Shown here piece by piece: positions 14,032-48,079 of a DNA stretch of 64,000 bases. The DNA is from Meiothermus sp. GTDB lineage: Bacteria > Deinococcota > Deinococci > Deinococcales > Thermaceae. Position numbers and translations under genes: made by a program. Position 1 is the first letter of the stretch; each line of letters opens with the position of its first letter. The stretch spans positions 2,272,041-2,336,040 of the forward strand of contig NZ_BPIK01000001.1 of assembly GCF_026004075.1 (NCBI RefSeq), in the 5' to 3' direction. Below the pieces are notes generated by a model. That model did not search any database. It saw only the letters and a list, made by a program, of their open reading frames with translations, and was not told the origin of the DNA.

Positions 14032-14075
14032 CTGGCCCGCCCTGGCGATGGGTGGTTTCTAAAGCAGAACCCCTA

Positions 14076-31319: not shown

Positions 31320-32102
31320 CTACGACCATCCCGCCAACAAATCGTCTACCGGCATGGCCGGGAAAGAACCCCGCAGCCCGCCCAGCACGAAGGTCTCTTC
31401 TTCCAGCAGACCCGGCCAGTCCAGCAGCACCTGAGAAAAGTTCTCCTCGGGCCCGGCCTGCGAAGCATGGGCCAGTACCGCCGCCCGGATGGTCGGAGCC
31501 AGGGGGCGCACGTCCACCCGCACCGCCACCGAGCAGGGCGAAACCCCATAGCGCTCGGGGTCGAACCTGGTCTGGGCCACCCGCTCTTTGGTGCGTACCG
31601 GAAAAAAGAGGCGCTTGGGCGGTTCGGGCATCACATTACCGGCCCGCCAGAAGGCCCCCAGGGTGGCCCGGTGGAGGTGGATGTGGTCGGCATGGCCGTA
31701 GTAGCCCTGGGGGTCGAACCCAATGACCACCTGGGGCTTTAGCTGGGCCATATACCCCAGCAGGACATCCTCGATCTGCTGCAGGTTCTGGTGCATGAAG
31801 CCCCTGGGGTTAGCCTGGGCGACCTCGAGCGGATACCCCGAGTCCTGGTAGCCCAGAAAGATGGGGGGACGCAGGCCCAGAGTGGTGCAGGCGGCCTCGA
31901 GCTCCTTTTCACGCAGCTTGCCCAGGGCCTCACCCTTGGGATATAGCGAAGCATCGAGGGCCGGATGCCGGATCCGGCCCTGCTCCCCGCGCGTGGCGCA
32001 GATCAGGTAAACTTCGTGCCCCAAAGCCGCATACTTAGCTAAGGTTCCGGCGCAGAAAAACGACTCGTCGTCGGGGTGGGCGAAGATGGCGAGTAGGCGC
32101 AT
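31320..32102 (-). CDS. LmbE/PIG-L family deacetylase
   Basis: A 260-residue zinc hydrolase. The metal and catalytic residues are in AHPDDESFF (His9, Asp11, Asp12) near the N-terminus and in YGHADHIHLHRA. The family removes N-acetyl groups from GlcNAc-linked substrates; in bacillithiol makers the BshB enzyme belongs here, and Deinococcota do make bacillithiol, but nothing nearby proves that role. The start is fixed by the conserved N-terminus and by a leaderless-type -10. It is divergent from the defence island and marks its left edge. Confidence 0.85.
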   Translation of the reverse strand: MRLLAIFAHPDDESFFCAGTLAKYAALGHEVYLICATRGEQGRIRHPALDASLYPKGEALGKLREKELEAACTTLGLRPPIFLGYQDSGYPLEVAQANPRGFMHQNLQQIEDVLLGYMAQLKPQVVIGFDPQGYYGHADHIHLHRATLGAFWRAGNVMPEPPKRLFFPVRTKERVAQTRFDPERYGVSPCSVAVRVDVRPLAPTIRAAVLAHASQAGPEENFSQVLLDWPGLLEEETFVLGGLRGSFPAMPVDDLLAGWS

Positions 32103-32111
32103 ACAGGGCCT

Positions 32112-32161
32112 AGTCTAACCGGTTATGCGCACCCACCTTATCGCTTTTTTGCTCATAGAAT
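32112..32161. promoter_or_regulatory. divergent promoters at the left edge of the defence island
   Basis: TAGACT (minus strand, 32112-32117) lies nine bases before the deacetylase ATG. TAGAAT (plus strand, 32156-32161) lies six bases before the DUF499 ATG. Between them the perfect palindrome TAACCGGTTA (32116-32125) touches the minus-strand -10. Both genes appear to make leaderless mRNAs. Confidence 0.5.
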
Positions 32162-32167
32162 AGCAGC

Positions 32168-35100
32168 ATGAAGGCCTATAATCACCTGGGTCAAGCTCTC
32201 AAACTGTATGCAGATGCATTAAAGCCTTTTTTCTTACAAGCGCTCAAGCAAGCACACGGTGAGGGGCGGGGCTGGGTTGAAGCTTACCTGGGTTCTTTGA
32301 GTGAGAACCGGCGTGGGCTGGTACTCGAGGAGATGAAGCGTGGCAAAACCGCCGAGGAGACGCTCGACCTCAATCACTTCAAAGACATTTTGTTGGGCCA
32401 GCGGGAGGTTTTCCGGGGTGTTTTAGGCCGGAACTACAACCGAGCCGTCACCTGGGCCGACGAGATTAGCGAGGTACGCAACGACTGGGCACACCAAAAG
32501 GAACTCCTCGAAGACGATGTCAACCGAGCCCTGGATAGCATGGCCCGGCTGCTCCGAATCATCGGCGCGGAAGAGACTGCCCAACAGGTACGAAAGCTGA
32601 TGGCGCGTGAGCTGCCCAAGGCACCTCAGGGTAGCCTCCCTCCCTGGTGGCAGTTGGCTGAGCCCGATGAGGTCATCCGTCGGGGGGACTTCGACGAGAA
32701 CACCTTTGCAGCGAAGCTCGACGACGTGGTGGCCGGGCGGGCGCCGGCTGAGTACCGCCATGCCGAGCTTTTCTTCAAGAAAACCTACCTAACCCAAGAA
32801 CTCGCTACCATCCTGAAAGACACCTTGCGGCGGCTTTCAGGGCTGGGTGGGGAGGCTGTAACACAGCTCCGCACCCCTTTTGGTGGCGGCAAAACCCACA
32901 CCCTCATTGCGCTATATCACCTGGTCAAGGCGTACAGCGAGCTCTTGGATCTTCCCGAGGTACAGAGCCTGTTGCAAGAAGCCGGGCTCAGAGACATGCC
33001 CAAAGCCCGGGTGGCCGTGCTGGTAGGCACTGAACTCTCAGCCCAGGGGCGCAAGATAGAAGGTTTGCACCTGCACACCCTGTGGGGCGAGCTGGCCTAC
33101 CAGCTTGGGGGTCGAAACGGCTACGAAAAGCTACAGGCTGCCGACGAAAACCGAAGCCCTCCCGGTAAGCAGGCTTTACGCGAGCTGCTGGAGGCTTACA
33201 GCCCGGTTCTCATTCTGATTGACGAGCTACTGGTCTATCAGGTCAAGGCCGCCTCGGTTGCGCTAGGCCATACCAACCTACAAGCCCAGACCTTCGCTTT
33301 CTTACAGGAGCTTAGCGAGGTGGTAGGAGGCTTGCCCAACGCTGCGCTCATCACCACCTTCCCCGAGTCGCACCTCGAGTACTACGACCACCAGGAAGCA
33401 CCCCAGGTCTTTGCCCGGCTGGAGAAAATCTTCGGGCGGGTACAGGCAGTGCGAATGCCGGTGCAGGGTGAGGAAATCTTCGAGGTACTGAGGCGACGCC
33501 TGTTCGAGCGGATTGACGGAGAGGCAGCCAAGCATGTGGTAGCGGCCTACATGAAAACCTACGATGCCTACCGCAACGAACTCCCCAGCGAGGTACGCAG
33601 CGGCGAGTACGGCCGCAAGATGCTCAAGGCCTTCCCCTTCCATCCCACACTGGTGGAGGTGCTCTACGAGCGCTGGGGCACCCTCCAGACCTTCCAAAAA
33701 ACCCGTGGCGTACTGCGTCTACTGGCTCGGGTTGTTGAGACCGACTACCTAAGCCCCACCGCCCGGCCTCTGATTGGGCTTGGAGATGCAACCCTGGGGG
33801 ACGCCGACCTGAGGGCCACCATAACCAGCGTGCTGGGTGAGGCCAACTGGGAGTCGGTTCTGGCCTCGGACATCGTCCCTCCCGAGGGGAAGGCCCATCT
33901 GCTCGACCGCGAGCTAGGGGGCGAGTATGCCCGTCATCGGCTGGGTCAATCACTAGCCACCGCAATTTTTATGTACTCCCACTCCGGCGGGGCCCAGCAA
34001 GGGGCCACCCGTCCCCAGCTTAACCTGGCCCTGGCCTACCCCGAGGGGATTACCCCTCTTCTGGTAGGGGATGCGCTGGACAATCTAAAGGGACGGCTTT
34101 ATTACCTTTATGCCAACGGGAGCTGGAGTTTCAAAGCCCAGCCCAACCTGAACGCCGTACTGGCCGACCGCATGGCCCAGGTCAAGGCAGAAGCGCTGGA
34201 GACCCTCCTCCAGAGCCAGGTAGAGAAGGTAGCGGGGTCAGGGCCGTTCAAGGTCTTTGTTTGGCCGCAGAGCCACCGCGAGGTGCCTGACTCGTCCCAG
34301 CTCAAGCTTGTGCTGCTTGGACCCGAAGCTCCCCACGACGACGAAGAAGCCCTGAAACGGCTTTATCACATCATCCAGGACAATCACGCCTCGGGGCCAC
34401 GGATCAACAAAAACACCACACTCTACCTTGCTCTTGCCAAAACCCCCTATCTGCGGGCCCAGGAAGCAGCCCGCAAACTGCTGGCACTCGAAGATATTCA
34501 GTCCGACCGGGGCCTGGTGCTCTCGGAAGAGCAGAAGGCTGAACTCACCCGGCTGTTGAAAGAGGCCCGTGAAGCCCTACCGGTGTTGCTCAAGAGCAGC
34601 TATACAGGCATGCTGGAACCCCAAGACGCCAAAGGCTCCTACCGATTCTTCGACCTCACCGCCTACGCCCGTACCCAGCCTACGCTCCAGGCCGCCGTAA
34701 CCGAGGTGTTGAGAGCCGAGGAGCTGCTGCTGAACAAGCTTGACCCGGCCTATTTGGTGCATGGTCCCTGGGGCTTATGGCCTCAGGATGAACCCTATCT
34801 GAACCTGCGCGAGTTGCGCGAGTACTTCCTGCGCCTGCCCCAACTGCCATTTTTGGAGCAAGACGAGGTGCTGAAGAATGCCATCCTCCAGGGCATCCGC
34901 ATCCACCTGTTCGAGCTGGGGGTGAAGGGAAACGATGGGTTCACCCAGGTCTGGGATGCCAGTCGGCCTCCTGGGACAGAGCAGGTTTTCTTTGGCGAGG
35001 CCTATGTGCTGGCCCGACCTGGCAAACTACCGCGCCCAGGATCAGAGCCTGGGCATTCTACAGATACCAACGAGAACGAAGATTTAGATCAAGACGAGCC

Positions 35101-35359
35101 CGTATCGCCTCCCAATAATGGCTCGGACAAGAAGACTGTTAAAACCAAGGTAAGGGTGACCCTCGAGCAGCTCGAGCTTTCGCGCATCCCTACACTGGTG
35201 GACTTGGCCAAGAGTTTGCGCGATGCTGGGGGCACGGTGCAGCTCCGGGTGGAAATCGAGGCCACCAGTCCAAAAGGGCTTGACGAGGGTGTGCTCAACA
35301 CCTCGGCAAAAGAAATTCTCGACCAGCACGGTCTTAAGTACGAGTGGCACGAGGAATAG
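32168..35359 (+). CDS. DUF499 AAA+-type ATPase with N-terminal Swt1-like HEPN region
   Basis: A 1063-residue protein. Residues 1-145 are helical and contain EVRNDWAHQ, i.e. Arg104-x4-His109, the RX4-6H motif of HEPN domains, in the context of Swt1-like HEPN regions. The DUF499 ATPase follows: Walker A TPFGGGKTHT (Gly239-Thr243), Walker B VLILIDELL (Asp352-Glu353). The C-terminus (about 990-1063) has a charged linker and a small alpha/beta domain. DUF499 ATPases occur beside DUF1156 methyltransferases and SNF2 helicases in predicted defence clusters. The gene has a leaderless-type promoter and is followed two bases later by the helicase gene. Biochemical role unknown; ATP-driven DNA engagement is inferred. 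Confidence 0.85.
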   Translation: MKAYNHLGQALKLYADALKPFFLQALKQAHGEGRGWVEAYLGSLSENRRGLVLEEMKRGKTAEETLDLNHFKDILLGQREVFRGVLGRNYNRAVTWADEISEVRNDWAHQKELLEDDVNRALDSMARLLRIIGAEETAQQVRKLMARELPKAPQGSLPPWWQLAEPDEVIRRGDFDENTFAAKLDDVVAGRAPAEYRHAELFFKKTYLTQELATILKDTLRRLSGLGGEAVTQLRTPFGGGKTHTLIALYHLVKAYSELLDLPEVQSLLQEAGLRDMPKARVAVLVGTELSAQGRKIEGLHLHTLWGELAYQLGGRNGYEKLQAADENRSPPGKQALRELLEAYSPVLILIDELLVYQVKAASVALGHTNLQAQTFAFLQELSEVVGGLPNAALITTFPESHLEYYDHQEAPQVFARLEKIFGRVQAVRMPVQGEEIFEVLRRRLFERIDGEAAKHVVAAYMKTYDAYRNELPSEVRSGEYGRKMLKAFPFHPTLVEVLYERWGTLQTFQKTRGVLRLLARVVETDYLSPTARPLIGLGDATLGDADLRATITSVLGEANWESVLASDIVPPEGKAHLLDRELGGEYARHRLGQSLATAIFMYSHSGGAQQGATRPQLNLALAYPEGITPLLVGDALDNLKGRLYYLYANGSWSFKAQPNLNAVLADRMAQVKAEALETLLQSQVEKVAGSGPFKVFVWPQSHREVPDSSQLKLVLLGPEAPHDDEEALKRLYHIIQDNHASGPRINKNTTLYLALAKTPYLRAQEAARKLLALEDIQSDRGLVLSEEQKAELTRLLKEAREALPVLLKSSYTGMLEPQDAKGSYRFFDLTAYARTQPTLQAAVTEVLRAEELLLNKLDPAYLVHGPWGLWPQDEPYLNLRELREYFLRLPQLPFLEQDEVLKNAILQGIRIHLFELGVKGNDGFTQVWDASRPPGTEQVFFGEAYVLARPGKLPRPGSEPGHSTDTNENEDLDQDEPVSPPNNGSDKKTVKTKVRVTLEQLELSRIPTLVDLAKSLRDAGGTVQLRVEIEATSPKGLDEGVLNTSAKEILDQHGLKYEWHEE

Positions 35360-35361
35360 CC

Positions 35362-38300
35362 GTGCAGTGGAATTCCCTCATAGACCGGGTAGTGGAGGCC
35401 CCCTACTGGCCCGAACCAGTACGGGTGCTGCGGCTTAGCCAGGCCGGGGGCCGCTTTGCCCTGGCGGTAGAAGGGCTCAAAAGCCGCCAGGTCTTCCACC
35501 GGCTGCTGAGCACGGATGAGGTAAGCGGACTGCTGCGCCTGACCCAGGCCGAGGCCGAGCCCTTTGGCGGCGACGGCGAACTGTTCGCTCTGGGCCTCGA
35601 GGCCCGTCGCATCCAGCTCGGCTACCTCTTTGACCCCTTTTTTGCTGTCTCGGCCAGCCGCATTGACCCTCTACCGCACCAGCTCGAGGCCGTCTATGGC
35701 GTGCTTCTGAAAAAGTCGCGGGTGCGCTTTCTGCTAGCCGACGACCCCGGTGCTGGCAAGACCATCATGGCCGGGCTATTGCTCAAGGAACTCCAGTACC
35801 GCGGCCTGCTGGAGCGGGTCTTGATTGTGACCCCGGCCAACCTAACCGACCAGTGGCGACGCGAACTCAAAGAGAAATTCGGCGAAACCTTCGAGGTCAT
35901 GAACCGCAACACCACCACCGCCCTCTACCAGGAAAACCCCTGGCTCAAGCGGCCCAAACTCATCACCAGCCTGGACTTTGCCAAGCGAGAGGAAAACCTA
36001 CGCCTCCTGGAACAGGCCTCCTGGGATATGGTGGTGGTGGACGAGGCCCACAAGCTCTCGGCCACCCGCTACGGGCCCGAGGTCAAAAAATCGCAGCGCT
36101 ACCGCCTGGGCGAGGTGCTTGCCCGCCAAAGCCACCACCTGCTCTTCCTTACCGCCACCCCTCACCAGGGCGACGATGAAAAGTTCCGGCTCCTGCTCGA
36201 CCTGCTGGAGCCCGACCTCTTCGCCCATACCACCTTGCTGGAAGAAGCAGCCCGGGCTGGGGAAAATCCCATCCTGCTACGGCGTCTCAAAGAAGACATG
36301 ACCGACTTTGAGGGTAAGCCCCTCTTCCCACCTCGCTATGTACACAGCCTATCCTTCCGACTCTCGCCCAGCGAGCAGGCACTATATGCCAGGGTTAGTG
36401 CGTACGTGGCCAAACACTTCAAGCGGGCCTGGGAGGAACAGCGGCGCAACGTGGGACTGGCTATGACGGTCTTACAGCGGCGCTTAGCCAGCAGCAGCTA
36501 TGCCATTGCCCAAAGCCTGGAAAACCGGCTCAGGCGTCTTTCCTCGCTGCGGGAGCAGGTGCTCAAGCTCCAGGAAAACCCCTACGGCGACTACACCGAA
36601 GAAGACCTCGAGGAGATGAGCGAAGAAGAGCGTTGGGAGTTGGAAAATAGCCTGTCTGAGCGGTTAACTCTGGCCCGCAACCTCCCCGAACTCGAGGGCG
36701 AACTTGCCGAGTTGGAAGACCTGGCCAAAGAGGCCCGCACCCTGGCCCGGCTGGAAGACGACCGCAAGCTAAAAGAGTTGTTGGCGGTTCTGGAGGGGCT
36801 ACGACAGGAGAAACTGCTCATCTTCACCGAGCACAAGGCCACCCTGGAATTTCTGGTAGGGGTACTCAAAAAGCGCGGCTATGCCGTCACCTCGATTGAC
36901 GGCTCCATGAGGCTGGAAGAACGGGTCTCGCGCGAGCGCGAATTCCGCGACAGCGCCCAGGTGATGGTGGCTACCGAGGCCGCAGGCGAAGGCATTAACC
37001 TGCAATTTTGCGCGGTAATGGTCAACTACGACCTACCCTGGAACCCCACCCGCCTCGAGCAGCGCATGGGCCGTGTGCACCGGTATGGTCAGCGGTTCGA
37101 CGTGCACATCTACAACCTAATCGCCCAGGGCACCCGCGAGGGCGAGGTGCTGCAGGTGGTGCTGGACAAGCTGGAAGTTATGCGGGCGCAGATGGGCTCC
37201 GACCGGGTTTACGATGTGGTTGGCGAGCTGCTTTCCGACGTTAACCTGGAAGCCCTCATCCTGGAACACCTGACCGGCCGCAAATCCCTGGCCCAAATCC
37301 GGGCCATGGTGGAGGCCCGCCTGTCGCCCGAACGGCTGGCCTACCTGCGAGAAGTCACCCTGGAAGCCCTGGCCCAACGCGAACTCGACCTCTCCCGCTT
37401 GCGCGAGGAGCGCGAACGCTCGGAGGAACACCGTTTGCAGCCCGAGTACACCCAGCGGTTCTTTGTGCGGGCCCTCACCCGTCTGGGCGGGGGCGTGGAA
37501 CGACGGAGCGACGGCCTGTTTCGGATCGCAGTGCCATACGACCTGGTTCGTAAGCAGCCGGGGGTACTGGCCCGCGAGTACGGAAAGACCACTTTCGACC
37601 CCAAAGCCCGCCTCGAGGCCGAACTCATCGCCCCCGGCCATCCCCTTTTCGACCTGGTTCTGGAGGAGATGCTCTCCCAGGCCGCACCCGTGCTGCGCCA
37701 GGGGGCTGTTTTCCAGACCGACCAGGGCGCCGAAGGGGTGCTGGGCTACCTGGAGCTGAGCGTGGTAGACGGGTTGGGGCAGACGGTATCCCGCAGGCTT
37801 TACGCCGCACTCGCAGGGGAAGCAGTAGAGCCCGTACCGCCGGAGGTCATCGTAGATGCCGAGCCTGCCCCAGCTACAAAGCCCCTGGCAAGTGGGGCTG
37901 GCGCAGAAGAAAAACTACTCGCCTGGGCTTATGAACATGTGCTGGAAGACTTCTACCGCCAGGTAGCCCAGGCGCGGCAGCGGGAAGTCGCCATTCGGCG
38001 GAAGTACGCCAGCCGAAGCCTGGAGTATTTGATTGACGCGTCGGTAAAGAAACTGACCCAGTACAAACTTAAGTCGGATGAAGGGGAGGCGATGCGTCTG
38101 GCTATATTGCAGGAAGAACGCCGACTGCAGGAGCTCGAGGCCCGCCAGCGCTCCCTCGAGGAAGAACTCCGGCGGGCCGAAACCCTGCACCCTGAACCTG
38201 CCCAGGTCGTGGCGCTGGCCTACCTATACCCCCGCCCCTCTGGAATACCCAGCGAAGACGATCCCGCTACACGCCAGGCCGTGGAGGAGGCCGCCATGCA

Positions 38301-38634
38301 AGTGGCGCTGGCCTACGAGCGCAAGGCAGGCCGCCACCCCCAGGATGTAAGCCGCGAGAACCTGGGCTACGACATTCGCTCCGAGGGCCGTCACATCGAG
38401 GTCAAGGGCCGTGCCGGGGTGGGGCCGGTGGTCCTCACCCCTAACGAGTGGATTGCCTCCAAGCGGCTGGGCGAGCAGTACTGGCTTTACATCGTGACCG
38501 AGGCCCTCACCAGCCCCCGCCTGTACCTCATCCAAAACCCAGCAGCCAAGCTCACCCCAGGGGAAGAGGTGAGCGTGGTGCGGTATGTCCTGGACCTGGC
38601 AGCCTGGCAGCGGGTGGCGCAGCCTTCCGGTTAA
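35362..38634 (+). CDS. SNF2-type helicase with C-terminal DUF3883 domain
   Basis: A 1090-residue superfamily 2 enzyme. Motif I is DDPGAGKT (127-134), motif II DEAH (227-230), motif III ATPHQG; the second RecA fold carries SIDGSMRLEERVSRE, ATEAAGEGINLQFC and RLEQRMGRVHRYGQ (motif VI). A coiled region interrupts the lobes. The C-terminus (about 985-1075) is DUF3883-like, with GYDIRSEGRHIEVKGRAG, an Asp...Glu-x-Lys arrangement seen in PD-(D/E)xK folds. The helicase part resembles DrmD of class 1 DISARM. GTG at 35362 has GAGGA upstream and lies two bases after the DUF499 stop, so the two are co-translated. Nuclease activity of the tail is inference. Confidence 0.86.
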   Translation: MQWNSLIDRVVEAPYWPEPVRVLRLSQAGGRFALAVEGLKSRQVFHRLLSTDEVSGLLRLTQAEAEPFGGDGELFALGLEARRIQLGYLFDPFFAVSASRIDPLPHQLEAVYGVLLKKSRVRFLLADDPGAGKTIMAGLLLKELQYRGLLERVLIVTPANLTDQWRRELKEKFGETFEVMNRNTTTALYQENPWLKRPKLITSLDFAKREENLRLLEQASWDMVVVDEAHKLSATRYGPEVKKSQRYRLGEVLARQSHHLLFLTATPHQGDDEKFRLLLDLLEPDLFAHTTLLEEAARAGENPILLRRLKEDMTDFEGKPLFPPRYVHSLSFRLSPSEQALYARVSAYVAKHFKRAWEEQRRNVGLAMTVLQRRLASSSYAIAQSLENRLRRLSSLREQVLKLQENPYGDYTEEDLEEMSEEERWELENSLSERLTLARNLPELEGELAELEDLAKEARTLARLEDDRKLKELLAVLEGLRQEKLLIFTEHKATLEFLVGVLKKRGYAVTSIDGSMRLEERVSREREFRDSAQVMVATEAAGEGINLQFCAVMVNYDLPWNPTRLEQRMGRVHRYGQRFDVHIYNLIAQGTREGEVLQVVLDKLEVMRAQMGSDRVYDVVGELLSDVNLEALILEHLTGRKSLAQIRAMVEARLSPERLAYLREVTLEALAQRELDLSRLREERERSEEHRLQPEYTQRFFVRALTRLGGGVERRSDGLFRIAVPYDLVRKQPGVLAREYGKTTFDPKARLEAELIAPGHPLFDLVLEEMLSQAAPVLRQGAVFQTDQGAEGVLGYLELSVVDGLGQTVSRRLYAALAGEAVEPVPPEVIVDAEPAPATKPLASGAGAEEKLLAWAYEHVLEDFYRQVAQARQREVAIRRKYASRSLEYLIDASVKKLTQYKLKSDEGEAMRLAILQEERRLQELEARQRSLEEELRRAETLHPEPAQVVALAYLYPRPSGIPSEDDPATRQAVEEAAMQVALAYERKAGRHPQDVSRENLGYDIRSEGRHIEVKGRAGVGPVVLTPNEWIASKRLGEQYWLYIVTEALTSPRLYLIQNPAAKLTPGEEVSVVRYVLDLAAWQRVAQPSG

Positions 38635-38680
38635 GTTTTATTCAAGTGCAATTCTCACAGCTAAACTAAGCTTATCCCCA

Positions 38681-38686
38681 TATCGT
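38681..38686 (+). promoter_or_regulatory. -10 element of the RecQ-PRTase gene, leaderless type
   Basis: TATCGT ends eight bases before the ATG at 38695, in an AT-rich gap of 60 bases after the helicase gene. It suggests independent expression of the RecQ/DprA pair. Confidence 0.4.
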
Positions 38687-38694
38687 TTTTGCGT

Positions 38695-40674
38695 ATGCAA
38701 GAGGAAGCTCTAACACATCTTCTTCAAAACAAGTTTCGTCTTCCATCCTTTCGCCCCGGCCAGCTCGAGGCCATTCAAGCAGCACTGGCCGGGGAGCGGG
38801 TGCTACTAGTTCAACCTACGGGCTGGGGCAAAAGCCTGGTTTACCAGATGATTGCCGCCGTTAAGGGGCTGACCGTGGTCTTCACCCCCTTGCGGGCCCT
38901 TATGCGTGACCAGGTCAAAGAAGCAGATCAGTACGGCCTGCGGGCTCAGACTCTCAACTCCGATCAGGACGAGTCACTGCATACAGCAATCCTGGAGCAA
39001 GCTAAGAAGGGGCAGCTCGATTTGCTTTTCATCTCGCCCGAGCGCATAAAAAACTCTCTCTGGAAAGAATTTTTGCCCGAATTGCCCATCAAAGCTCTGG
39101 TTATAGACGAAGCCCACTGCATCTCTACCTGGGGGCACGACTTCCGCCCAGATTATCGGAGAATTGTTGAGCTTGTTCAGCACTTACCCCCTCAAACACC
39201 CGTTGTAGCCGTCACAGCTACTGCCACAAAAAGGGTCGAGCAGGACATCGAAAGTCAACTGGGTGCGAAAGCAAAGGTGATTCGGGGCAACCTGGTACGC
39301 TCCAATTTCTGGCTGAACGTTATTCCGGTCAGCAGCGAAGCAGAAAAGCTCGCGTGGGTGGACTACTGGGTCAGCACGCTCGAGGGCACCGGTATCGTTT
39401 ACTGCGCCACAAAAGCCATGACTGAAAACGTAGCTAGCTACCTGGGCAATCTTGGGATAAAAACCACCTACTATCACAGCGATCTGAGCCCGGATGAGCG
39501 TCTAGAACGCGAAAGGGGCTTGATGGAGAATGCCTTCAAAGTAATTGCGGCAACCAACTCCTTAGGCATGGGCCTGAACAAACCCGACATTCGCTTCATC
39601 ATCCACACCGAGTTCCCCGGCTCCATGCTGCACTACTATCAAGAGATTGGCCGCGCAGGGCGCGATCAGCAACCCGCTCGTCTGATTCTGCTTTATAACC
39701 CAGAGGATAGAAGCATACAGGAAAGCTTCATTAATGGAAGCAAACCCAGCCCGGATAGCTACCACCAGGTTCTTTCACTGTTGCATAAATCCGCTTTGAG
39801 AGAAAGAGACATTATGCTACAGACCGGGCTCTCGCAAACAGCCGTACGCAATATTATCGCCGATTTGCAGGAGCAAAAGTTAGTGGGGGAGAAAGATCCG
39901 CAAGGCTATTACCGAGCCATTGCCCACGGAACCCCAAGTTTTGATGCTCAAAACGAGCTGCGCCAGCATAAACTGGCCGACCTCGAGGCCATGATTGCGT
40001 ATGTAAACACCCAGACCTGCCGGATGGTGTACCTGTGCAATTATCTGGGCGACCCGGAAACCAAGCCCTGCAGGCAGTGCGATAACTGCCGCCAGGATGC
40101 TTTACCTTCCCTAACCGCCGATTTGGTGCAGCGGGCGAGAGAACATGTAACACACCCCAAGCTTCACCTGAAAGCCCCAGTATTCGAAGATGGCCGAGCC
40201 CTGGACTACTACAAGGACACCCGGGTGGGAGAAGCCGTTCATGCAAGCAAGTACAAAACGCATACCCCATTCCCCGACTGGCTTGTACAAGACTCCTCCA
40301 GGGTGATTTGGAAGTACTGGGCCGACCAGGGGATTTCTGGTGTAGTTGCTGTACCTTCTACCAAAAGCGGGGGCTTGGTGGAAGACTTTGCAAAGCGGCT
40401 GGCTCAAAGTTTGGGGATACCTTTTCTGGATGTGGTTTGCAAGGTAAGGGAAACGGAGCCGCAAAAAAACTTCACCAATCGAACCCAAAAGCGCGAAAAC
40501 CTCAAAGACGCCTTCCTGGGCAGGCCGGGCATCCAGGGAAACCTGCTGGTAGTAGATGATGTGATGGATTCAGGGGTAACCTTAGAGGAGGTGGGCAAGG
40601 CATTGAAGCGGGCAGGAGCTGGCCGGCTCTTTGCCTTCGCACTAGCCAAGACCCGCCACAGTGACGACGTATGA
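38695..40674 (+). CDS. RecQ helicase fused to a phosphoribosyltransferase domain
   Basis: A 659-residue fusion. Residues 1-350 are a RecQ-type helicase: Walker A PTGWGKS (41-47), DEAH (138-141) followed by CISTWGHDFRPDY, and a second lobe with GMGLNKPDIRF and QEIGRAGRDQQ. A winged-helix-like stretch and the RecQ zinc cysteines (CRMVYLCNYLG, then CRQCDNC) follow. The last 180 residues are a ComF-like phosphoribosyltransferase, with the PRPP loop VVDDVMDSGVT at about 619-629. Base composition is more AT-rich than in the flanking helicase gene, suggesting separate acquisition. Its stop overlaps the DprA-like start (ATGA). I know of no standard housekeeping RecQ with such a tail. Confidence 0.85.
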   Translation: MQEEALTHLLQNKFRLPSFRPGQLEAIQAALAGERVLLVQPTGWGKSLVYQMIAAVKGLTVVFTPLRALMRDQVKEADQYGLRAQTLNSDQDESLHTAILEQAKKGQLDLLFISPERIKNSLWKEFLPELPIKALVIDEAHCISTWGHDFRPDYRRIVELVQHLPPQTPVVAVTATATKRVEQDIESQLGAKAKVIRGNLVRSNFWLNVIPVSSEAEKLAWVDYWVSTLEGTGIVYCATKAMTENVASYLGNLGIKTTYYHSDLSPDERLERERGLMENAFKVIAATNSLGMGLNKPDIRFIIHTEFPGSMLHYYQEIGRAGRDQQPARLILLYNPEDRSIQESFINGSKPSPDSYHQVLSLLHKSALRERDIMLQTGLSQTAVRNIIADLQEQKLVGEKDPQGYYRAIAHGTPSFDAQNELRQHKLADLEAMIAYVNTQTCRMVYLCNYLGDPETKPCRQCDNCRQDALPSLTADLVQRAREHVTHPKLHLKAPVFEDGRALDYYKDTRVGEAVHASKYKTHTPFPDWLVQDSSRVIWKYWADQGISGVVAVPSTKSGGLVEDFAKRLAQSLGIPFLDVVCKVRETEPQKNFTNRTQKRENLKDAFLGRPGIQGNLLVVDDVMDSGVTLEEVGKALKRAGAGRLFAFALAKTRHSDDV

Positions 40675-41627
40675 ACCCCCTGTACTGGATGCTTCTGGCG
40701 CACTCAGGCCTCAAGACTGCCGAGAAAATGCAGATTTTGCGGGCAGCGGGTGGAAACCTCGAGGGCTTCGTCGAGGGTGGTCTGCCAGGGCTATCCGGTA
40801 ACACCAGGGCCGTGATGGAAAAAATCCTGGAAGAAGCAGCGGCAACAGGGTTTCTTCTAGAGGAGCTGAAACGTCAGGGAATACGGGTCATACCGGGGGC
40901 GGCCCCCGAGTACCCCGTTCGGCTCAAACAAACCCTACGCCAGAACACGCCATTGGTGCTTTACGTGGCGGGTGAAGTTAGTCTGCTGCAGAGTAAGCGC
41001 TCAATTGCCATCGTGGGCTCGAGGAACGCCAGCCCGGAGGCCCTCGAGCTCACCCGAAGGGCTGGGCGGTATTTCGGGAAGGAAGGCTACGCAGTGGTTA
41101 CCGGCATGGCCCGTGGCGCAGACCTCGAGGCTTTCCACGGGGTCAGGGAGGTAGCTGGGAAGGCCATCGGGGTTTTGCCGTATGGGATTTCAGCCAAGGA
41201 AACTTTCAAGCTTTTGCGAGAGTATCAAGAGGATATTTTCTCGGGGCGGCTGGCCTTGCTTTCGGAATTGCACCCGGACGCACCCTGGAAAGCCCAGTAC
41301 GCCATGATGCGAAACCGCATTGTAGTGGCTCTGTCGGATGCATTATTGGTAGCCCAAACAGGTCTCAAAGAAACTGTAGAACAGGGCAAAAAACGCATGA
41401 GCGGCACCTGGGATGCCGTGGCTCAGGCCAAGCGCCTGGGTCGGCCAGCATTTGTATTCGATCTTCCTATAGAGGGCAACCAAGCCCTTATCGCCCAGGG
41501 CATGGCCCAACCCCTGCCTGCTTTCCCAGGCGACCAAACCTTCATGCAACTGGAAGATACCCTGTCCCCACCAGCAAAGAAATCCCGAGAAACGCCTATC
41601 CAACCGCCCCTTCTGACGCCAGAGTGA
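40671..41627 (+). CDS. DprA/Smf-like protein paired with the RecQ-PRTase
   Basis: A 318-residue protein. Residues 1-65 are a helical, SAM-like N-terminus; then GIRVIPGAAPEYPVRLKQTL and the Rossmann fold with IVGSRNASPEALELTRRAG (about 114-132) and VTGMARGADLEAFHG, the Smf/DprA signature. DprA proteins bind single-stranded DNA and load RecA during transformation, but this copy lies in a defence island, overlaps a PRTase gene by four bases and has a divergent C-terminus. In the ShosTA pair a DprA-like protein neutralises a PRTase-type toxin, so an antitoxin or regulatory role is plausible. That assignment is inference. Confidence 0.82.
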   Translation: MNPLYWMLLAHSGLKTAEKMQILRAAGGNLEGFVEGGLPGLSGNTRAVMEKILEEAAATGFLLEELKRQGIRVIPGAAPEYPVRLKQTLRQNTPLVLYVAGEVSLLQSKRSIAIVGSRNASPEALELTRRAGRYFGKEGYAVVTGMARGADLEAFHGVREVAGKAIGVLPYGISAKETFKLLREYQEDIFSGRLALLSELHPDAPWKAQYAMMRNRIVVALSDALLVAQTGLKETVEQGKKRMSGTWDAVAQAKRLGRPAFVFDLPIEGNQALIAQGMAQPLPAFPGDQTFMQLEDTLSPPAKKSRETPIQPPLLTPE

Positions 41628-41674
41628 TGAGTGAAGCGGCATACCCCTGGGGCCGAATGCTGGCTAGTACAACA

Positions 41675-41680
41675 TAGAAT
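41675..41680 (+). promoter_or_regulatory. -10 element of the AlbA_2 regulator gene, leaderless type
   Basis: TAGAAT ends six bases before the GTG at 41687; the 59-base gap after the DprA-like gene has no ribosome binding site. Confidence 0.5.
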
Positions 41681-41686
41681 AGTCCT

Positions 41687-43384
41687 GTGACGGAAGCCGA
41701 GCTGTTGGCCTTAGTAAACCAAGGGGAATCCCTACACTGCGAGTTCAAACGTGATTCCCCCATCCCCGATGTTGAGCTGGCTGAGGCGGTAGCCTGCCTG
41801 GCCAACACCGAAGGGGGATGGCTTCTGCTGGGGGTGGAGGATGACGGCAGCATCAGCGGGCTCCACCCTAAGCGCTTGCCGGTCAATCCCCACCTTCTGC
41901 AAGCCCTTATCGCCAACAAGACCAGCCCCGGTGTTCAGGTTGAGGTGCACCAGGTGCAAACCCGCGATGGGGTGGTGGTGGCCTTGAGGGTGGCGAGGGC
42001 TCCTCACCTGGTGGCCCTCACCGATGGCCGGGTGCCGCGTCGCTTCATCGTGGGCCGCGGTCAGCCGGAGTGCCGCTTCCTTCAGCCGCACGAGCTGGCT
42101 TCTCGCTTGGCCGAGCTGTACCAGCACGACTACACCGCCCAGGCCCTGCAAAAAGCGACATGGGAGGACCTGAACCCCCTGGAGTTTGAGCGCCTGCGTC
42201 AGACCATCCAGCGCAACCCTCGAGCCGACAAAACCCTGCTCGACCTCCCGGACGAGGAATTGGCGCAGGCCTTGGGCCTGGTGGTCAGCGGCGACGGGCG
42301 ACTCCTGCCCACGGTGGCGGGGGTGCTCCTGCTGGGCAGGGACGAGGCCATCCGCCGACTGGTGCCCACCCACGAGGCCGCTTTCCAGGTGTTGCGCGAA
42401 GACCGGCAGGTGGCCGTCAACGAGTTTTTCCATGAGCCCCTGCTCAAGCTGTTCGAGCGCCTTGAGCAACGTCTGCAGGCTCATAACCCCGAGGAAGAGT
42501 TCTCCTTCGGTCTGTATCGAATCCCAGTGCCCCTCTTTCCCCCGGAGGCTTTCCGCGAGGCGTTGGCCAATGCTCTGGTGCACCGAGACTATGCCCTCTT
42601 GCAGGCGGTTTATGTGCGCCTTGACCCGGACGCCGGGGGCTTGGTCATCAGCAACCCTGGGGGGTTCGTGGAGGGGGTGACCCTGGACAACCTCCTGGTG
42701 GTGGAGCCCAGGCCACGCAACCGCACCCTGGCCGATGCCTTCAAGCGTCTGGGCCTGGTGGAGCGCACCGGACGTGGCATTGACCGCATCTTCCGCGAGG
42801 TGCTGGGTTTGGGTAGGCGCCCACCCGACTATTCTGGAACCACTCGAGACACGGTAAAAGTGGTGCTGCCGGGGGGCAAGGCCGACCTGAACTTTGTCCG
42901 CCTCATCCTTGAGGTCCAAGACCGCCAGAGAAGGGAGCTTGGCTGGCCCCACCTCCTGGTATTGCGCCAGGTAACCAACGAGGGAGAACTCACCGTGGCC
43001 GAGACCGCACGCCTCATTCAGCAGGGCGAGTCAAGAGCCCGAACCCTATTAGAGGAGATGGTAGAGATGGGTCTGTTGGAGGCCAGGGGGGCCAAGAGAG
43101 GACGGGTCTATCACCTGAGCGCGGGGGTGTACAAGCGTCTGGGGAGGCCTTCGGCCTATGTTCATCGCCGTGGTTTCGACGCCCTTCAACAGGAACAGAT
43201 GGTTCTCACCTACCTCAAAAGCCACGGTAGCATCACCCGCGGGGAAGTTGCTGGGCTATGCCATCTGACCCCATCCCAGGCCGAGTATCTGATGCGTAAG
43301 CTGAAAAAAGCTGGGAAAGTGCGCCTGGTGGGCAAAGGTCGTTCAGCCCACTACGAGTATCTCAGCATAAACTCTGAAAGTTGA
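41687..43384 (+). CDS. AlbA_2/Schlafen-like ATP-binding transcriptional regulator
   Basis: A 565-residue protein. Residues about 8-130 are an AlbA_2 (Schlafen-like) domain: ESLHCEFKRDSPIP, then ANTEGGWLLLGVEDDG. A GHKL-type region (HATPase_c_4) follows with REALANALVHRDY and RTGRGIDRIF. The C-terminus has two winged-helix segments (LTVAETARLIQQGESRARTL; ITRGEVAGLCHLTPSQAEYL). Related proteins are often annotated as RecG-like or DNA-binding regulators and are common in defence islands. It starts from a leaderless-type promoter, and an operator-like palindrome lies directly after its stop codon before the methyltransferase gene, so control of the modification enzyme is a reasonable guess. Confidence 0.82.
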   Translation: MTEAELLALVNQGESLHCEFKRDSPIPDVELAEAVACLANTEGGWLLLGVEDDGSISGLHPKRLPVNPHLLQALIANKTSPGVQVEVHQVQTRDGVVVALRVARAPHLVALTDGRVPRRFIVGRGQPECRFLQPHELASRLAELYQHDYTAQALQKATWEDLNPLEFERLRQTIQRNPRADKTLLDLPDEELAQALGLVVSGDGRLLPTVAGVLLLGRDEAIRRLVPTHEAAFQVLREDRQVAVNEFFHEPLLKLFERLEQRLQAHNPEEEFSFGLYRIPVPLFPPEAFREALANALVHRDYALLQAVYVRLDPDAGGLVISNPGGFVEGVTLDNLLVVEPRPRNRTLADAFKRLGLVERTGRGIDRIFREVLGLGRRPPDYSGTTRDTVKVVLPGGKADLNFVRLILEVQDRQRRELGWPHLLVLRQVTNEGELTVAETARLIQQGESRARTLLEEMVEMGLLEARGAKRGRVYHLSAGVYKRLGRPSAYVHRRGFDALQQEQMVLTYLKSHGSITRGEVAGLCHLTPSQAEYLMRKLKKAGKVRLVGKGRSAHYEYLSINSES

Positions 43385-43390
43385 TTTCTT

Positions 43391-43407
43391 AACTCTGAAT
43401 CAGAGTT
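43391..43407 (+). promoter_or_regulatory. operator-like palindrome before the methyltransferase gene
   Basis: AACTCTGAATCAGAGTT is a perfect inverted repeat (8-base arms, one central base). A further half site AACTCTGA lies about 20 bases upstream, at the end of the regulator gene. It could also act as a small hairpin with TTT after it, a weak terminator. The ATG at 43430 and its CAGGAG follow. Confidence 0.5.
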
Positions 43408-43429
43408 TTTGTCGAGTTCAGGAGTTAAT

Positions 43430-46210
43430 ATGAACCCAAAACGCCGCCTCATCGAGCACCGCTTACCCCTCAAGGAAATCTCGGAGGCCTCCGCCAAGGA
43501 GAAGTCCATCCGCCACGGCCACATCTCCACCCTGCACATCTGGTGGGCCCGCCGCCCCCTGGCCGCCAGCCGCGCCGCGGTGTTCGCCACGCTGGTGCCC
43601 GACACCGACGAAAACTACGAGCTGGTGAAGCAAATCGTCCCCTGGGAGGCCGTGAAGGACGGCAACAACGCGGCCATTCTGGAAGCCCGCCGCCGGGTGC
43701 TGGAGGCCAACGGGGGCCAGCCGCCCAAGGTGCTCGACCCCTTCGGCGGGGGCGGGGCCATTCCGCTCGAAGCCCTGCGCCTGGGCTGTGAGGTGTACAG
43801 CCTCGACCTCAACCCAGTTGCCCACCTTATCCAGCGGGCCACGCTGGAGTACCCGCAAAAGTACGGCCAGCCCGGCAGCCGCCCGGTGCCCGAGTACATC
43901 CGGGCCAAGGACAACGCCAAAAGCAAAGGCCGCCAGTCGCTGGACTTTGGCGAGGGGGACGATCCCCTGTCGGGACGTTCTACGCCCGTGCACCAGGGGG
44001 AGTGGGCAAGCAGCTACCAGCAAAACCCGCTGGCCGCCGAGGTGCGCTACTGGGGCGAGTGGGTGCTGGAACGGGCCAAGGCCGAGCTATCCGAGTTCTA
44101 CCCCCCCGACCCCGACGGCAAAACCCCCGTGGCCTACCTGTGGGCCCGCACCGTCACCTGCACCAACCCCACCTGCCGGGCCGAGGTTCCTCTGGTGCGC
44201 CAGTGGTGGCTGGCTAAAAAAGACAAAAAGCGCATTGCCCTGAAGCCAAAGGTAAACACCGCGGCCAAGACCATTGCCTTCGAGGTGGTAAGCGTCGGCA
44301 AAAGCGAGGAGTGGCCGGAAGAAGGGACAATCACACGGGGTAGCGCCGTCTGCCCTGTATGCGGCAGTGCGGTTGCTAATGACTCGATTCGTCAGCAAGG
44401 CACTGAAGGTCGGATGGGGCAAAGACTCCTTGCTGTTGTGCTCTCTACGGAAAAGGATGGGAAATCCTATCGAACTGCAACCCCGGAAGACCTCCGTGTT
44501 TTTGAAGCAGCCCAAGAGCAATTAGATAAAACGCTGAGAGACCTGCAAAACCATTTTGTAGTGAACGAATCCCCTCTAAACCCATTACCCGACGAACCTA
44601 TCAATGTTGCCGACAAGCGCAACTTCTGGGTTGGCGAGTACGGGCCGAATACTTGGGGCCAGCTCTTCAACCCCCGCCAGGCCCTGGCCCTGGTCACCTT
44701 CGCCAAATGGGTGCGCGAGGCCCACGCCGAGATGTTGAAGGTGGGGATGGATGAAGAGTGGGCTCGAGGGGTGGCGACGTATTTGGGCGTTGCCTTAGAT
44801 AAGGTCGCAGACTATAACTCAAACATCTGCACGTGGGCCAATCATGGTGAGTACATCGGTCACACATTTGTACGGCAGGCTTTGCCAATGGTATGGGATT
44901 ATGCTGAGACGGTTCCAATAGCAGAAACATCAGGAAACTGGGAAGGTGGAATTGACTGGAGCGTTCGTGTCGCTGAATCTACAGCTCTTGCATCACACAA
45001 TGCTGCAAACGTTTTACGCGGCACTGCCACCCGCCTTCCTCTGGAAGATAACTCCCTGGACGCCATCGTTACCGACCCGCCTTACTACGATGCCGTTCCC
45101 TATTCCGACCTCTCCGACTTTTTTTATGTCTGGCTCAAGCGCACCATCGGCCACCTGTACCCCGAGCACTTCCGCACGCCCCTAACGCCCAAGCGCGAGG
45201 AGGCCGTGCAGAACCCGGTGCGTCACGGGGGCGACAACCAGAAGGCCAAGGAGTTCTTCGAGCAGATGATGAGCGAGGCCTTTCGGGAGATGCACCGGGT
45301 GCTAAAGCCCTCGGGCGAGGCCACCATTGTGTTTGCTCACAAGAGCACCGAGGCCTGGGAGACCCTTATTAGCGCGCTCATCAAAGCGGGGTTCCAGGTA
45401 GAGGCTTCCTGGCCTATGCACACCGAGATGCAAACGCGGCTGCGGGCGCGGGAGTCGGCGGCGCTGGCTTCGTCTACCTTCCTCAACTGCACCAAGCGGG
45501 AGGGGGGCGGGGTGGGCTTCTTTACCGACGTGCGCCGCGAGATGCAGGAGGCCATTCGTCCGCAGCTACTGGAGTTCTGGGAGGCCGGGATTCGCGGGGC
45601 CGACTTTTTTATGTCGGCCATTGGGCCGGGGCTCGAGGCCTATAGCCGCTACGACGTGGTCAGGCGGGCCGATGGGCGCGAGGTGGGGGTGGGGGAGTTT
45701 CTGGACGAGGTACGAAAAATTGTGCTGGAGTTTGCCCTCGAGCAGGTGCTGGGCGCAAAGGCCATGGGCATGGTGGATGGGCCTACCCAGTTTGCCCTCC
45801 TTACCCTGTGGGCCTACGGCTCCGAGCTACCCTCCGACGAGGCCCGCAAACTGGCCCAAAGCGCGGGGGTAGAGCTGGCCGAGCTGGGCAGCTTGGTGGA
45901 AGTCAAAGGGGAAAAAACCCGCCTACGCACCGCTAAAGAGCGGGCTCGAGACAAACACCTCGCCCAGCCGGGGTCAGACGGCATCGCCATTGTAGATGCC
46001 CTGCACCGCACCCTGCTTCTGATGCGCGAAGGCAAGCAGGCCATAGCCGACTACCTGTCCGAAGCCGGCCACCTGGAGAGCGAAACCTTCTGGCAGGTAG
46101 CCCAGGCCCTGGCCGAGGTGCAGGAAGGCAGCGAGGAGGGCCGCAGCCTCCAGGAACTCCTCGCGGTGCGGCAGGGCCTGCCCAGGCCCAGCAACGCGCG
46201 GCTGCTGTAG
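43430..46210 (+). CDS. DUF1156 adenine-type DNA methyltransferase
   Basis: A 926-residue methyltransferase. The N-terminal DUF1156 part has RLIEHRLPLKEISEASAKEK and HISTLHIWWARRPLAASRAA. The SAM-binding motif is LDPFGGGGAIPLEALRLG (102-119). Zinc-ribbon-like Cys pairs lie at CTNPTCRAEV and CPVCGSAV (about 240-320). The catalytic motif is TDPPYYD with DPPY at 549-552, typical of N6-adenine or N4-cytosine enzymes. ATG 43430 has CAGGAG upstream; earlier in-frame starts add seven unrelated residues. Bases about 44240-45050 are clearly more AT-rich than both ends of the gene, hinting at a swapped recognition segment. It is presumed to mark self DNA. It ends directly against the convergent debranching-enzyme gene. 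Confidence 0.87.
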   Translation: MNPKRRLIEHRLPLKEISEASAKEKSIRHGHISTLHIWWARRPLAASRAAVFATLVPDTDENYELVKQIVPWEAVKDGNNAAILEARRRVLEANGGQPPKVLDPFGGGGAIPLEALRLGCEVYSLDLNPVAHLIQRATLEYPQKYGQPGSRPVPEYIRAKDNAKSKGRQSLDFGEGDDPLSGRSTPVHQGEWASSYQQNPLAAEVRYWGEWVLERAKAELSEFYPPDPDGKTPVAYLWARTVTCTNPTCRAEVPLVRQWWLAKKDKKRIALKPKVNTAAKTIAFEVVSVGKSEEWPEEGTITRGSAVCPVCGSAVANDSIRQQGTEGRMGQRLLAVVLSTEKDGKSYRTATPEDLRVFEAAQEQLDKTLRDLQNHFVVNESPLNPLPDEPINVADKRNFWVGEYGPNTWGQLFNPRQALALVTFAKWVREAHAEMLKVGMDEEWARGVATYLGVALDKVADYNSNICTWANHGEYIGHTFVRQALPMVWDYAETVPIAETSGNWEGGIDWSVRVAESTALASHNAANVLRGTATRLPLEDNSLDAIVTDPPYYDAVPYSDLSDFFYVWLKRTIGHLYPEHFRTPLTPKREEAVQNPVRHGGDNQKAKEFFEQMMSEAFREMHRVLKPSGEATIVFAHKSTEAWETLISALIKAGFQVEASWPMHTEMQTRLRARESAALASSTFLNCTKREGGGVGFFTDVRREMQEAIRPQLLEFWEAGIRGADFFMSAIGPGLEAYSRYDVVRRADGREVGVGEFLDEVRKIVLEFALEQVLGAKAMGMVDGPTQFALLTLWAYGSELPSDEARKLAQSAGVELAELGSLVEVKGEKTRLRTAKERARDKHLAQPGSDGIAIVDALHRTLLLMREGKQAIADYLSEAGHLESETFWQVAQALAEVQEGSEEGRSLQELLAVRQGLPRPSNARLL

Positions 46211-48079
46211 CTATACCCGAACCGTGCCCAGCGCCAAAAGGCCCTGCACCGGGTGCTTGCGGTTGATCTCCTGAATGAGCCGCAGCATATACACCACCGC
46301 CGCCGCGTCCCAGGCTTGGGGCCTACAGGAAGCCGGGTACGGCACCGGCGGTTCCCCTTCGTGCTTGGGGTAGCCCCCCACCAGCTCCGGCAGGCGCCAG
46401 TCGGGCTGGGTCATGGCCAGGCGGAAGAGCGCCTCCATGGCCCGCAGGGCTTCTTCGTAAAAGCCGTAGCGCACCAGTCCTCCAATCAATAGCGCGTTGT
46501 CGTGCGGCCAGACCGAGCCGTTGTGGTACGAGAGCGGGTTGTAGCGCACCTCCCCTGCGCCCAGCGTGCGCACCCCCCAGCCGCTAAAAAGCGCCTCGGA
46601 GAAGAGGGTCTCGACCAGTTGGGGGGCCACCTCCTCCGGCACGATGCCGCTCCACAGCAAGTGGCCGGGGTTGGAGGTGAGGATGGCCATGGGCCGTTTT
46701 TCCCCGTCCAGGCCGGCCGCGTAGGTGCGCAGTTCGGGCAGCCAGAAGGCCTGGTGGAAGCGGGCTCGGAGGGTCTGGGCTCGAGACTCCCATGCTTCGG
46801 CTTGACCGGTCTGGCCCAGCGCCCGGTAAAACGCCGCCGCAGACTGATAGGCCATATAGGCATAGCCCTGTACTTCGCAAACCGCAATGGCCCCCTGGGC
46901 CAGCGAGCCGTCGCGGTGGCTCTGGGAGTCGAAGGAGTCTTTCCAGGACTGCACCAGGTGGCCCTTCTGGGTGTTGGGGGCGTACTCCAGAAAGCCGTCC
47001 TGGTCGGGGTCGGCGTAGTCGGTCATCCAGGCCAGGGCCGCCTCCCAGTGGGGCTGCAAGCGGCGCACAAAGGCCATATCGCCGCTGTCTTTCCAGTACC
47101 GGTGCAGCAGAACGACAAAGAGCGGGGTGGCATCCACGGTGCCGTAGTAGCGGGCAAAGGGCACCTGGCCGGTGCGCGAAAGCTCGCCTAAGCGCATCTC
47201 GTGGATGATCTTGCCGGGGGTCTCGTCCAAAAACGGGTTCACCTCCCGGCCCTGGTACCTGGCGAGGTAGGTCAGTACCCCCTGGGTTACGTCGCTGGCC
47301 CAGGGCTGCATCATGTAGGCTGTCAGCAGGGAGTCGCGGCCAAAAGGGCAGACATACCAGGGAATCCCCGCCGCCGGGAACAGCCCTTCGGGCAGGGAGA
47401 AGAGCAAGGCCCGCAGGTCGGTGATGGCCTGCTCCAAGACCCGCTGGCTGCGTCCGCTTTCCATATGGAGGGGGAAGCGTTGCTGCCAGTCCTGGTAGCT
47501 GGGCAGGGGCGGGGTGTGGGGCTCGAAGGGGCTTTCGAAGCGGCCTTTCAGGTGCAAAAGAACTTTCTGTTTGGGTGCCAGGGCAAAGCGCCAGGTGTAC
47601 ACCGCGCCGCCCTCGAGCGCTGTTTCTTGAACGGGCGGGGGGTCGAAGGTGAGGCGGGTAGCCAGGCGCAGGCCGTCGGGAGCGGTGTACTCGAGGCCCT
47701 CCAGCCGCCGCTCCACCCTGTGCCAGCCCTTGGCCTCGAAAAGGTCGGCAAAGTCGGCCTGGGCCTGCAGGGCAATCTCCAAAGTATGGGCTTCCAGTGC
47801 GGTGTTCTCCAGTTCCAGCCGCTCCCAGAACCCACCCCGTTCCATCTGGAGTTCCCGCCGCACCCCCACCACCTGGTCGGGGCCCTTAATCCAGCTCCAG
47901 TGCTGCACCAACCGGTCGGGGCGGGGGCTATGCGAGAGCAGCAGGCGAAAGCCCGGCAGCACCCAGGTGTAGCTCGAGAGGTAGCGGGTATCGTGCCGGT
48001 AAAAGCCCTGCTCCCCTGCTTCCACCAGGCCCTGGTCTGATAAAACTGCGTAAGTATCGTCTTCTTTGAGCGGAAGCAT
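46211..48079 (-). CDS. glycogen-debranching-type (amylo-alpha-1,6-glucosidase-like) enzyme
   Basis: A 622-residue protein. The N-terminal beta domain (about 1-200; GEQGFYRHDTRYLSSYTWVL) is of GDE_N type. The C-terminal alpha/alpha toroid has GIPWYVCPFGRDSLLTAYMM, HEMRLGELSR, YYGTVDATPLFVVLLHRY and YNPLSYHNGSVWPHDNALL, which carry the conserved acidic and His residues of the family. It would cleave branch linkages in glycogen or other alpha-glucans, with no signal peptide seen, so in the cytoplasm. It is last in an operon with a LacI regulator and a sugar ABC importer, which points to use of imported oligosaccharides. Its stop abuts the end of the methyltransferase gene. Confidence 0.87.
   Translation of the reverse strand: MLPLKEDDTYAVLSDQGLVEAGEQGFYRHDTRYLSSYTWVLPGFRLLLSHSPRPDRLVQHWSWIKGPDQVVGVRRELQMERGGFWERLELENTALEAHTLEIALQAQADFADLFEAKGWHRVERRLEGLEYTAPDGLRLATRLTFDPPPVQETALEGGAVYTWRFALAPKQKVLLHLKGRFESPFEPHTPPLPSYQDWQQRFPLHMESGRSQRVLEQAITDLRALLFSLPEGLFPAAGIPWYVCPFGRDSLLTAYMMQPWASDVTQGVLTYLARYQGREVNPFLDETPGKIIHEMRLGELSRTGQVPFARYYGTVDATPLFVVLLHRYWKDSGDMAFVRRLQPHWEAALAWMTDYADPDQDGFLEYAPNTQKGHLVQSWKDSFDSQSHRDGSLAQGAIAVCEVQGYAYMAYQSAAAFYRALGQTGQAEAWESRAQTLRARFHQAFWLPELRTYAAGLDGEKRPMAILTSNPGHLLWSGIVPEEVAPQLVETLFSEALFSGWGVRTLGAGEVRYNPLSYHNGSVWPHDNALLIGGLVRYGFYEEALRAMEALFRLAMTQPDWRLPELVGGYPKHEGEPPVPYPASCRPQAWDAAAVVYMLRLIQEINRKHPVQGLLALGTVRV

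Follow-up and report, generated by a model that had tools for sequence, protein, structure and literature searches.

The locus analysed here corresponds to the Hma system, which was named by Payne et al. in 2021 and consists of a helicase (HmaA), a methylase (HmaB) and an ATPase (HmaC) (PMC8565338). In 2026 it was reclassified as the Type-1 DUF499-centred BREX-related (BR) system, and that work gives the HEPN-fused form in 1370 taxa (PMC12839542). In Type-1 BR systems the ATPase is often fused to HEPN, and the helicase usually ends in a PD-(D/E)XK nuclease. A restriction mechanism like the one favoured below, including HEPN and Schlafen proteins, is already proposed in the same work, where the Schlafen-HATPase-wHTH class is also noted near these systems. 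Hma/Type-1 BR systems are widespread, and few direct experiments on them were found in the literature.

Further defence genes are known to lie between Hma genes. Such Hma-embedded candidates (HEC) come from a 2024 preprint by Payne et al., as related in two later papers (PMC12111858, PMC12255303). One of them, HEC-04, is reported to give resistance on its own (PMC12111858). A comparable arrangement is found with DarTG2, a toxin-antitoxin within a type I restriction-modification (R-M) island; the island to which it belongs gives E. coli a defence against phages (PMC12255303). RqlHI, the PsyrTA homologue in E. coli, has been shown experimentally to be a toxin-antitoxin-like pair, in which a genotoxic phosphoribosyltransferase (PRTase) is restrained by a DprA-like partner (PMC4670107). 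A DprA/PRTase pair also gives E. coli protection against T7 and lambda (PMC9122126).

The window, meaning the whole stretch of 64,000 nucleotides of Meiothermus sp. DNA that was analysed, carries six intact genes in the interval 32168-46210, all on the + strand, as found by an ORF check and by Pfam and PADLOC scans (Table 1). They are arranged as HmaC-HmaA-PsyrT-PsyrA-Schlafen protein-HmaB, with PsyrTA and the Schlafen gene standing between HmaA and HmaB. An initial annotation of this DNA had described four genes. Its three co-directional core frames are intact by ORF, Pfam and PADLOC, but it had missed both the RecQ-PRTase gene and the DprA-like gene.

Table 1. Positions of the island, its genes and its neighbours in the window.
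Feature	Position	Strand	Description
PIG-L deacetylase gene	31320-32102	-	left neighbour of the island
Whole island	32103-46210	.	inserted between PIG-L deacetylase gene and glycogen-debranching-type gene
HmaC	32168-35359	+	N-terminal Swt1-type HEPN fused to DUF499 AAA+ ATPase
HmaA	35344-38634	+	SNF2/DrmD-like helicase, C-terminal NOV_C/DUF3883
PsyrT	38689-40674	+	RecQ helicase, zinc-binding domain, C-terminal phosphoribosyltransferase; ATG at 38695
PsyrA	40671-41627	+	DprA-like (SLOG) antitoxin; 4-bp overlap (ATGA) with PsyrT stop
Schlafen protein	41687-43384	+	Pfam SLFN_AlbA_2, HATPase_c_4, HTH_24 (winged HTH)
Candidate operator	43370-43407	.	half site AACTCTGA (43370) and palindrome AACTCTGAATCAGAGTT (43391-43407)
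HmaB	43409-46210	+	DUF1156 and amino-methyltransferase
Glycogen-debranching-type gene	46211-48079	-	right neighbour of the island

Judged by its protein families, the locus is a HEPN-fused Hma (Type-1 BREX-related) operon and thus belongs to a known, widespread defence family; it is not a new system. Pfam, PADLOC and motifs together identify a HEPN-fused DUF499 ATPase, a DUF1156 methyltransferase and an SNF2 helicase with NOV_C. The profile searches that the annotation had proposed name the core HmaC, HmaA and HmaB, each matching its PADLOC model over most of its length. The annotation had called the system uncharacterised and a distinct type. This does not hold, since the three-gene system has been Hma since 2021 and Type-1 BREX-related since 2026; PADLOC and the two defining papers (PMC8565338, PMC12839542) rule out a separate type. 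Its broader proposal, a BREX-related self/non-self system made of a methylase, a helicase(-nuclease) and a large ATPase, is supported by the family matches and by the co-occurrence of the core.

The locus differs from most Hma systems in three respects. Its order is C-A-B as opposed to A-B-C in nearly all survey loci, its HmaC has an extra N-terminal HEPN domain outside the PADLOC HmaC model, and PsyrTA and a Schlafen gene are embedded in it. With Type-1 BR systems, as set out in the main text describing them, it shares a HEPN-DUF499 ATPase, a DUF1156 N6-methyltransferase and a helicase with a C-terminal PD-(D/E)XK domain, as well as a Schlafen-kinase-like-wHTH protein of the kind listed there among linked auxiliary effectors; that main text makes no mention of RecQ/PRTase/DprA cargo (PMC12839542). 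BREX type 3 likewise combines a methylase, a helicase and a large ATPase, but PglZ, which the annotation had found lacking at the locus, is without a match in the entire genome, and membership of BREX types 1-6 is ruled out. The DrmD-like helicase is shared with DISARM. Membership of DISARM is also ruled out, as none of the six proteins is DrmA or DrmB, in agreement with the annotation, and the DrmA match of HmaA is far weaker than its HmaA match. The DUF1998/MZB proteins of the genome sit elsewhere.

The core proteins have kept their motifs. HmaC matches Pfam HEPN_Swt1 (7e-20) and DUF499 (4e-28), both over the Pfam cut-offs, and PADLOC HmaC (1e-157). Its HEPN domain covers residues 9-133 and has the motif R-N-D-W-A-H; the RN(x)3H pattern is kept in all aligned HEPN-fused HmaC proteins of Thermaceae. 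In the ATPase, Walker A (GGGKT) and Walker B (IDE) are both kept in aligned relatives. The HEPN fusion is also found outside the C-A-B clade, and the HEPN-fused and HEPN-less states need three to four changes on the trees, so that more than one gain or loss of HEPN probably took place.

HmaA matches PADLOC HmaA (2.6e-208) and Pfam SNF2, Helicase_C and NOV_C. Its start is likely the GTG at 35362, just past the HmaC stop, where homologues begin. The NOV_C/DUF3883 domain (window 38281-38532) carries G-Y-D...I-E-V-K, a PD-(D/E)XK pattern, and G-[YFW]-D...[IL]-E-V-K occurs in every aligned sequence; the helicase motifs are conserved too. When an AlphaFold model of the C-terminus (pLDDT 88.9), dominated by long helices, was searched against PDB folds, no match was significant, and the weak ones include PD-(D/E)XK nucleases; the nucleases I-Ssp6803I, RecU and NhoI are among them. 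The assignment as a nuclease, which is likely, therefore rests on Pfam, on motifs and on published analysis (PMC12839542).

HmaB matches Pfam DUF1156 (2.9e-24) and PADLOC HmaB (5e-155), and likely starts at the ATG at 43430, where homologues start. It has DPFGGGG as motif I and TDPPYYD, at about 45071-45091, as motif IV, both conserved across relatives. In general, DPPY is a mark of adenine-N6 (or cytosine-N4) methylases and not of the C5 class. By sequence, no relative of solved structure was detectable for HmaB or HmaC.

The two genes following HmaA have the arrangement that defines PsyrTA, a RecQ-PRTase toxin gene adjoining a DprA-like antitoxin gene in one operon. PsyrT matches PADLOC PDLC03928 (2.8e-235, 781 bits; residues 4-659 to profile positions 4-688 of 689) and Pfam RecQ_Zn_bind and Pribosyltran, and its PRTase domain lies at 40372-40629 with the PRPP motif VVDDVMDSGVT. 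PsyrA matches PADLOC PDLC03927 (6.9e-60), ShosA (5e-35) and Pfam DNA_processg_A (3.5e-36). As in RqlHI (PMC4670107), the genes overlap within one operon, and PsyrT matches in full and PsyrA for the greater part; the difference is that the pair in the window is placed between two Hma core genes. A putative toxin-antitoxin role is assigned to it because of RqlHI and because of the phage protection given by the E. coli DprA/PRTase pair. The next gene had been taken for a regulator. The gene is indeed there, but its SLFN_AlbA_2, HATPase_c_4 and winged HTH domains make an effector or a sensor more likely than a plain regulator.

Conservation of the core was followed in 18 genomes of the genus, in 50 genomes of Thermaceae, and in a contig survey of 80 loci from many phyla and archaea. 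An HmaB match is present in 13 of the 18 genus genomes, and HmaA and HmaC stand beside every complete HmaB locus. The survey has all three core genes in 54 of its 80 loci and at least one partner of HmaB in 73. The annotation had named rare co-occurrence of the core genes as a finding that would count against it, and they do co-occur. HmaB stands alone in seven survey loci, four of them on contigs no longer than 6.5 kb; the three longer ones (L088, L101, L146) have no detectable HmaA or HmaC. Pairwise distances of HmaA, HmaB and HmaC correlate with r = 0.96, 0.96 and 0.92 over 44 loci (no permutation out of 2000 reached such values), a correlation that partly reflects shared species history, in loci that span phyla and occur patchily. 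Because the three genes co-occur across many phyla and their distances correlate, the association is not due to chance, and the core co-evolves. The three trees show the same main clades, each placing the window in one clade with G006, G007, G020 and G034.

The order A-B-C is found in 53 of the 54 complete survey loci, the sole exception being M. hypogaeus, a relative of the window. Within Thermaceae, the C-A-B form is found in six of the 50 genomes (G000, G003, G006, G007, G020, G034) and nowhere else among the loci surveyed. The order C-A-[slot]-B is a detail new to this analysis.

The six C-A-B loci, with identities of at least 73%, differ in what lies between HmaA and HmaB. PsyrTA and Schlafen genes are found in two, the window and M. 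hypogaeus (G003). DarTG is found in another two, with DarT at 4.8e-73 and DarG at 5.9e-130 in G006, and a homologous module with an open DarT frame in G020. The last two are empty, with a gap of 31 bp in G007 and an overlap of 4 bp in G034. Since close relatives differ in this way, the space is a site of cassette exchange, and sequence comparison indicates a slot in which modules are swapped by recombination. The main interest of the window locus is that a suicide-type toxin-antitoxin lies inside Hma where close relatives carry DarTG or nothing. With a shared core and differing slots, these closely related operons form a ready natural series for comparison. The core can do without the embedded genes, since G007 and G034 have it with nothing in the slot.

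Insertions of this kind are common beyond the clade. Gaps of more than 250 bp occur between HmaA and HmaB in 41 of 70 survey loci and between HmaB and HmaC in 26 of 56, and 105 of the 119 slot ORFs, a mechanical list that includes some shadow ORFs, are co-directional with the operon. Among their Pfam families are Schlafen (7), OLD-like ATPases (6), HD (3), and DarT, DprA, HEPN, Fic and NYN (2 each), and several match PADLOC HEC models. The A-B-C slots of Thermaceae hold HigBA-, HicB-, Schlafen-, PIN-, NYN- and macrodomain-like genes, named by inspection of the sequences except for Schlafen, which was found by HMM. In many Thermus A-B-C loci, the gap between HmaB and HmaC (L191-L198) has small HTH-like genes of about 140 and 185 aa just before HmaC, often with a RelE/HigB-like gene. 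These are possibly a conserved operon regulator or a toxin-antitoxin.

The chromosomal site is patchily occupied. The PIG-L and debranching-enzyme genes adjoin directly, with no island between them, in five genomes (G003, G005, G009, G010, G014), and in G007 Hma stands beside the same debranching gene as in the window. In G001 the site holds a 71-residue C-terminal remnant of HmaB (L024:10059-10373) and no slot module, which reads as a decayed island that has lost nearly all of its length. In G013 a PsyrTA pair about 94% identical to that of the window lies directly beside the same PIG-L gene (L075:7937-11007). HmaC and HmaA are gone there, as are Schlafen and HmaB, and an IS605/TnpB-like gene is near; from its sequence, PsyrTA has outlived the Hma system at this site. 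PsyrTA is also present away from Hma in G019. Because PsyrTA stands without Hma in these two genomes, its functional coupling to the core is a candidate only.

A repeat element precedes HmaB. The palindrome AACTCTGAATCAGAGTT has the form AACTCTGA-N-TCAGAGTT, with a half site AACTCTGA 21 bp upstream; it occurs once in the 3.25-Mb genome, and 22 bp separate it from the likely start of HmaB. The same element is found before HmaB in G006 and G020, whose DarTG cassettes are unrelated to that of the window (L022:4947 and L188:11426). M. hypogaeus has at this place a different double palindrome, ATAATTGC-N5-GCAATTAT twice, and the slot-empty C-A-B loci G007 and G034 have no palindrome before HmaB. 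The last codons of the Schlafen gene in the window (AAC TCT GAA AGT TGA) lie inside the element. It stands alone after DarG in G006 and G020, and the C-terminal tail of the M. hypogaeus Schlafen protein differs there. We read the element as a candidate operator and also as a recombination junction, the right-hand scar of the slot. The 17-bp palindrome might instead be a transcription terminator, though with a 7-bp stem and a short T run it would be a weak one, and an operator is preferred. The DarTG2 island resembles the locus in having a toxin-antitoxin in a restriction operon, a hotspot-like slot and a repeat operator; it differs in its type I R-M core and in encoding its own repressor, RptR (PMC12255303), whereas no regulator or repressor of the candidate operator was identified in the island of the window.

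Taken as a whole, the locus is probably a HEPN-fused Hma defence operon acting like restriction-modification, with two embedded backup modules. We infer methylation, restriction, toxicity and guarding at the locus as follows. HmaB would methylate adenines in a host motif and so mark self. HmaC, an ORC/STAND-like AAA+ ATPase, would assemble a scanning complex on DNA, and HmaA, as a translocating helicase-nuclease, would degrade unmarked DNA. The HEPN domain of HmaC, PsyrTA and the Schlafen protein would act as a second line, poisoning the infected cell when restriction is survived or disabled by the phage. The PRTase of PsyrT would be restrained by PsyrA, which may sense single-stranded DNA or nucleotides, and the Schlafen protein probably cuts RNA. 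A further step is doubtful: in the C-A-B lineage of Thermaceae, the HmaA-HmaB junction may be a dedicated guard slot, in which interchangeable modules (PsyrTA and Schlafen, or DarTG) sit between HmaA and an operator-controlled HmaB, and the toxin is set free when the Hma core fails or is inhibited, or when the methylase is lost. If so, restriction and abortive infection would be one regulated unit.

That Hma, PsyrTA and Schlafen are independent units sharing an island, each working alone, with the slot a neutral insertion point and no guarding, has a chance only slightly below even. This view has the core claim in common with the backup-module explanation and differs from it only in coupling, so that the two estimates overlap. 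It fits the finding of PsyrTA by itself beside PIG-L in G013 and at a distance from Hma in G019, the two relatives with an empty slot, and the resistance reported for HEC-04 alone (PMC12111858). Against it, insertions keep the orientation of the operon and recur at the A-B and B-C junctions; being co-oriented, they would therefore share expression, which is no proof of coupling.

It is rather unlikely that PsyrTA and Schlafen are addiction modules, which stabilise the island and do not defend, with loss of the operon killing the cell and the slot selected for retention of Hma. Slots in Thermaceae do commonly hold toxin-antitoxin-type genes (DarTG; HicAB and Fic on T. thermophilus pVV8; HigBA-like in other Thermus), and G013 kept PsyrTA after losing HmaC, HmaA and HmaB at the site. 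However, no module accompanies the Hma genes kept in G007 and G034, none remains in G001 after the loss of nearly all of its island, and the PRTase/DprA pair gives E. coli phage resistance (PMC9122126). A quite different proposal is that the operon, with RecQ, DprA and the SNF2 helicase, serves DNA repair or competence in a thermophile capable of natural transformation. The RecQ and DprA families include named factors of repair and transformation, and Thermaceae are transformable. Yet the RecQ protein has a PRTase attached and matches PsyrT from end to end, and the DprA-like protein reaches 105 bits against the NCBIfam DprA cut-off of 191 and matches PsyrA/ShosA. The patchy distribution, the empty site in close relatives and the co-occurrence of methylase and HEPN favour defence. 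On family matches and patchiness this proposal is ruled out, and we give it hardly any weight.

A second candidate defence locus lies some 25 kb past the end of the window (L208:9400-18258, genome about 2361400-2370260). Its overlapping operon encodes a 1458-aa DUF1998/YprA-like helicase, a 1181-aa DpdF/RecQ-like protein and a 315-aa protein with no PADLOC match.

Another, related HEPN-Hma locus is found on plasmid pVV8 of T. thermophilus HB8, a strain in standard laboratory use (L210, NC_017767.1, record 3900-16487), with Fic and HicAB embedded. Its order is Fic-HmaB-HicA-HicB-HTH-HTH-HmaC, and a divergent helicase-related gene takes the place of HmaA. No published methylation motif for its DUF1156 enzyme was found in the literature. 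The pVV8 locus makes the question of coupling between embedded toxin and core approachable in a tractable host.
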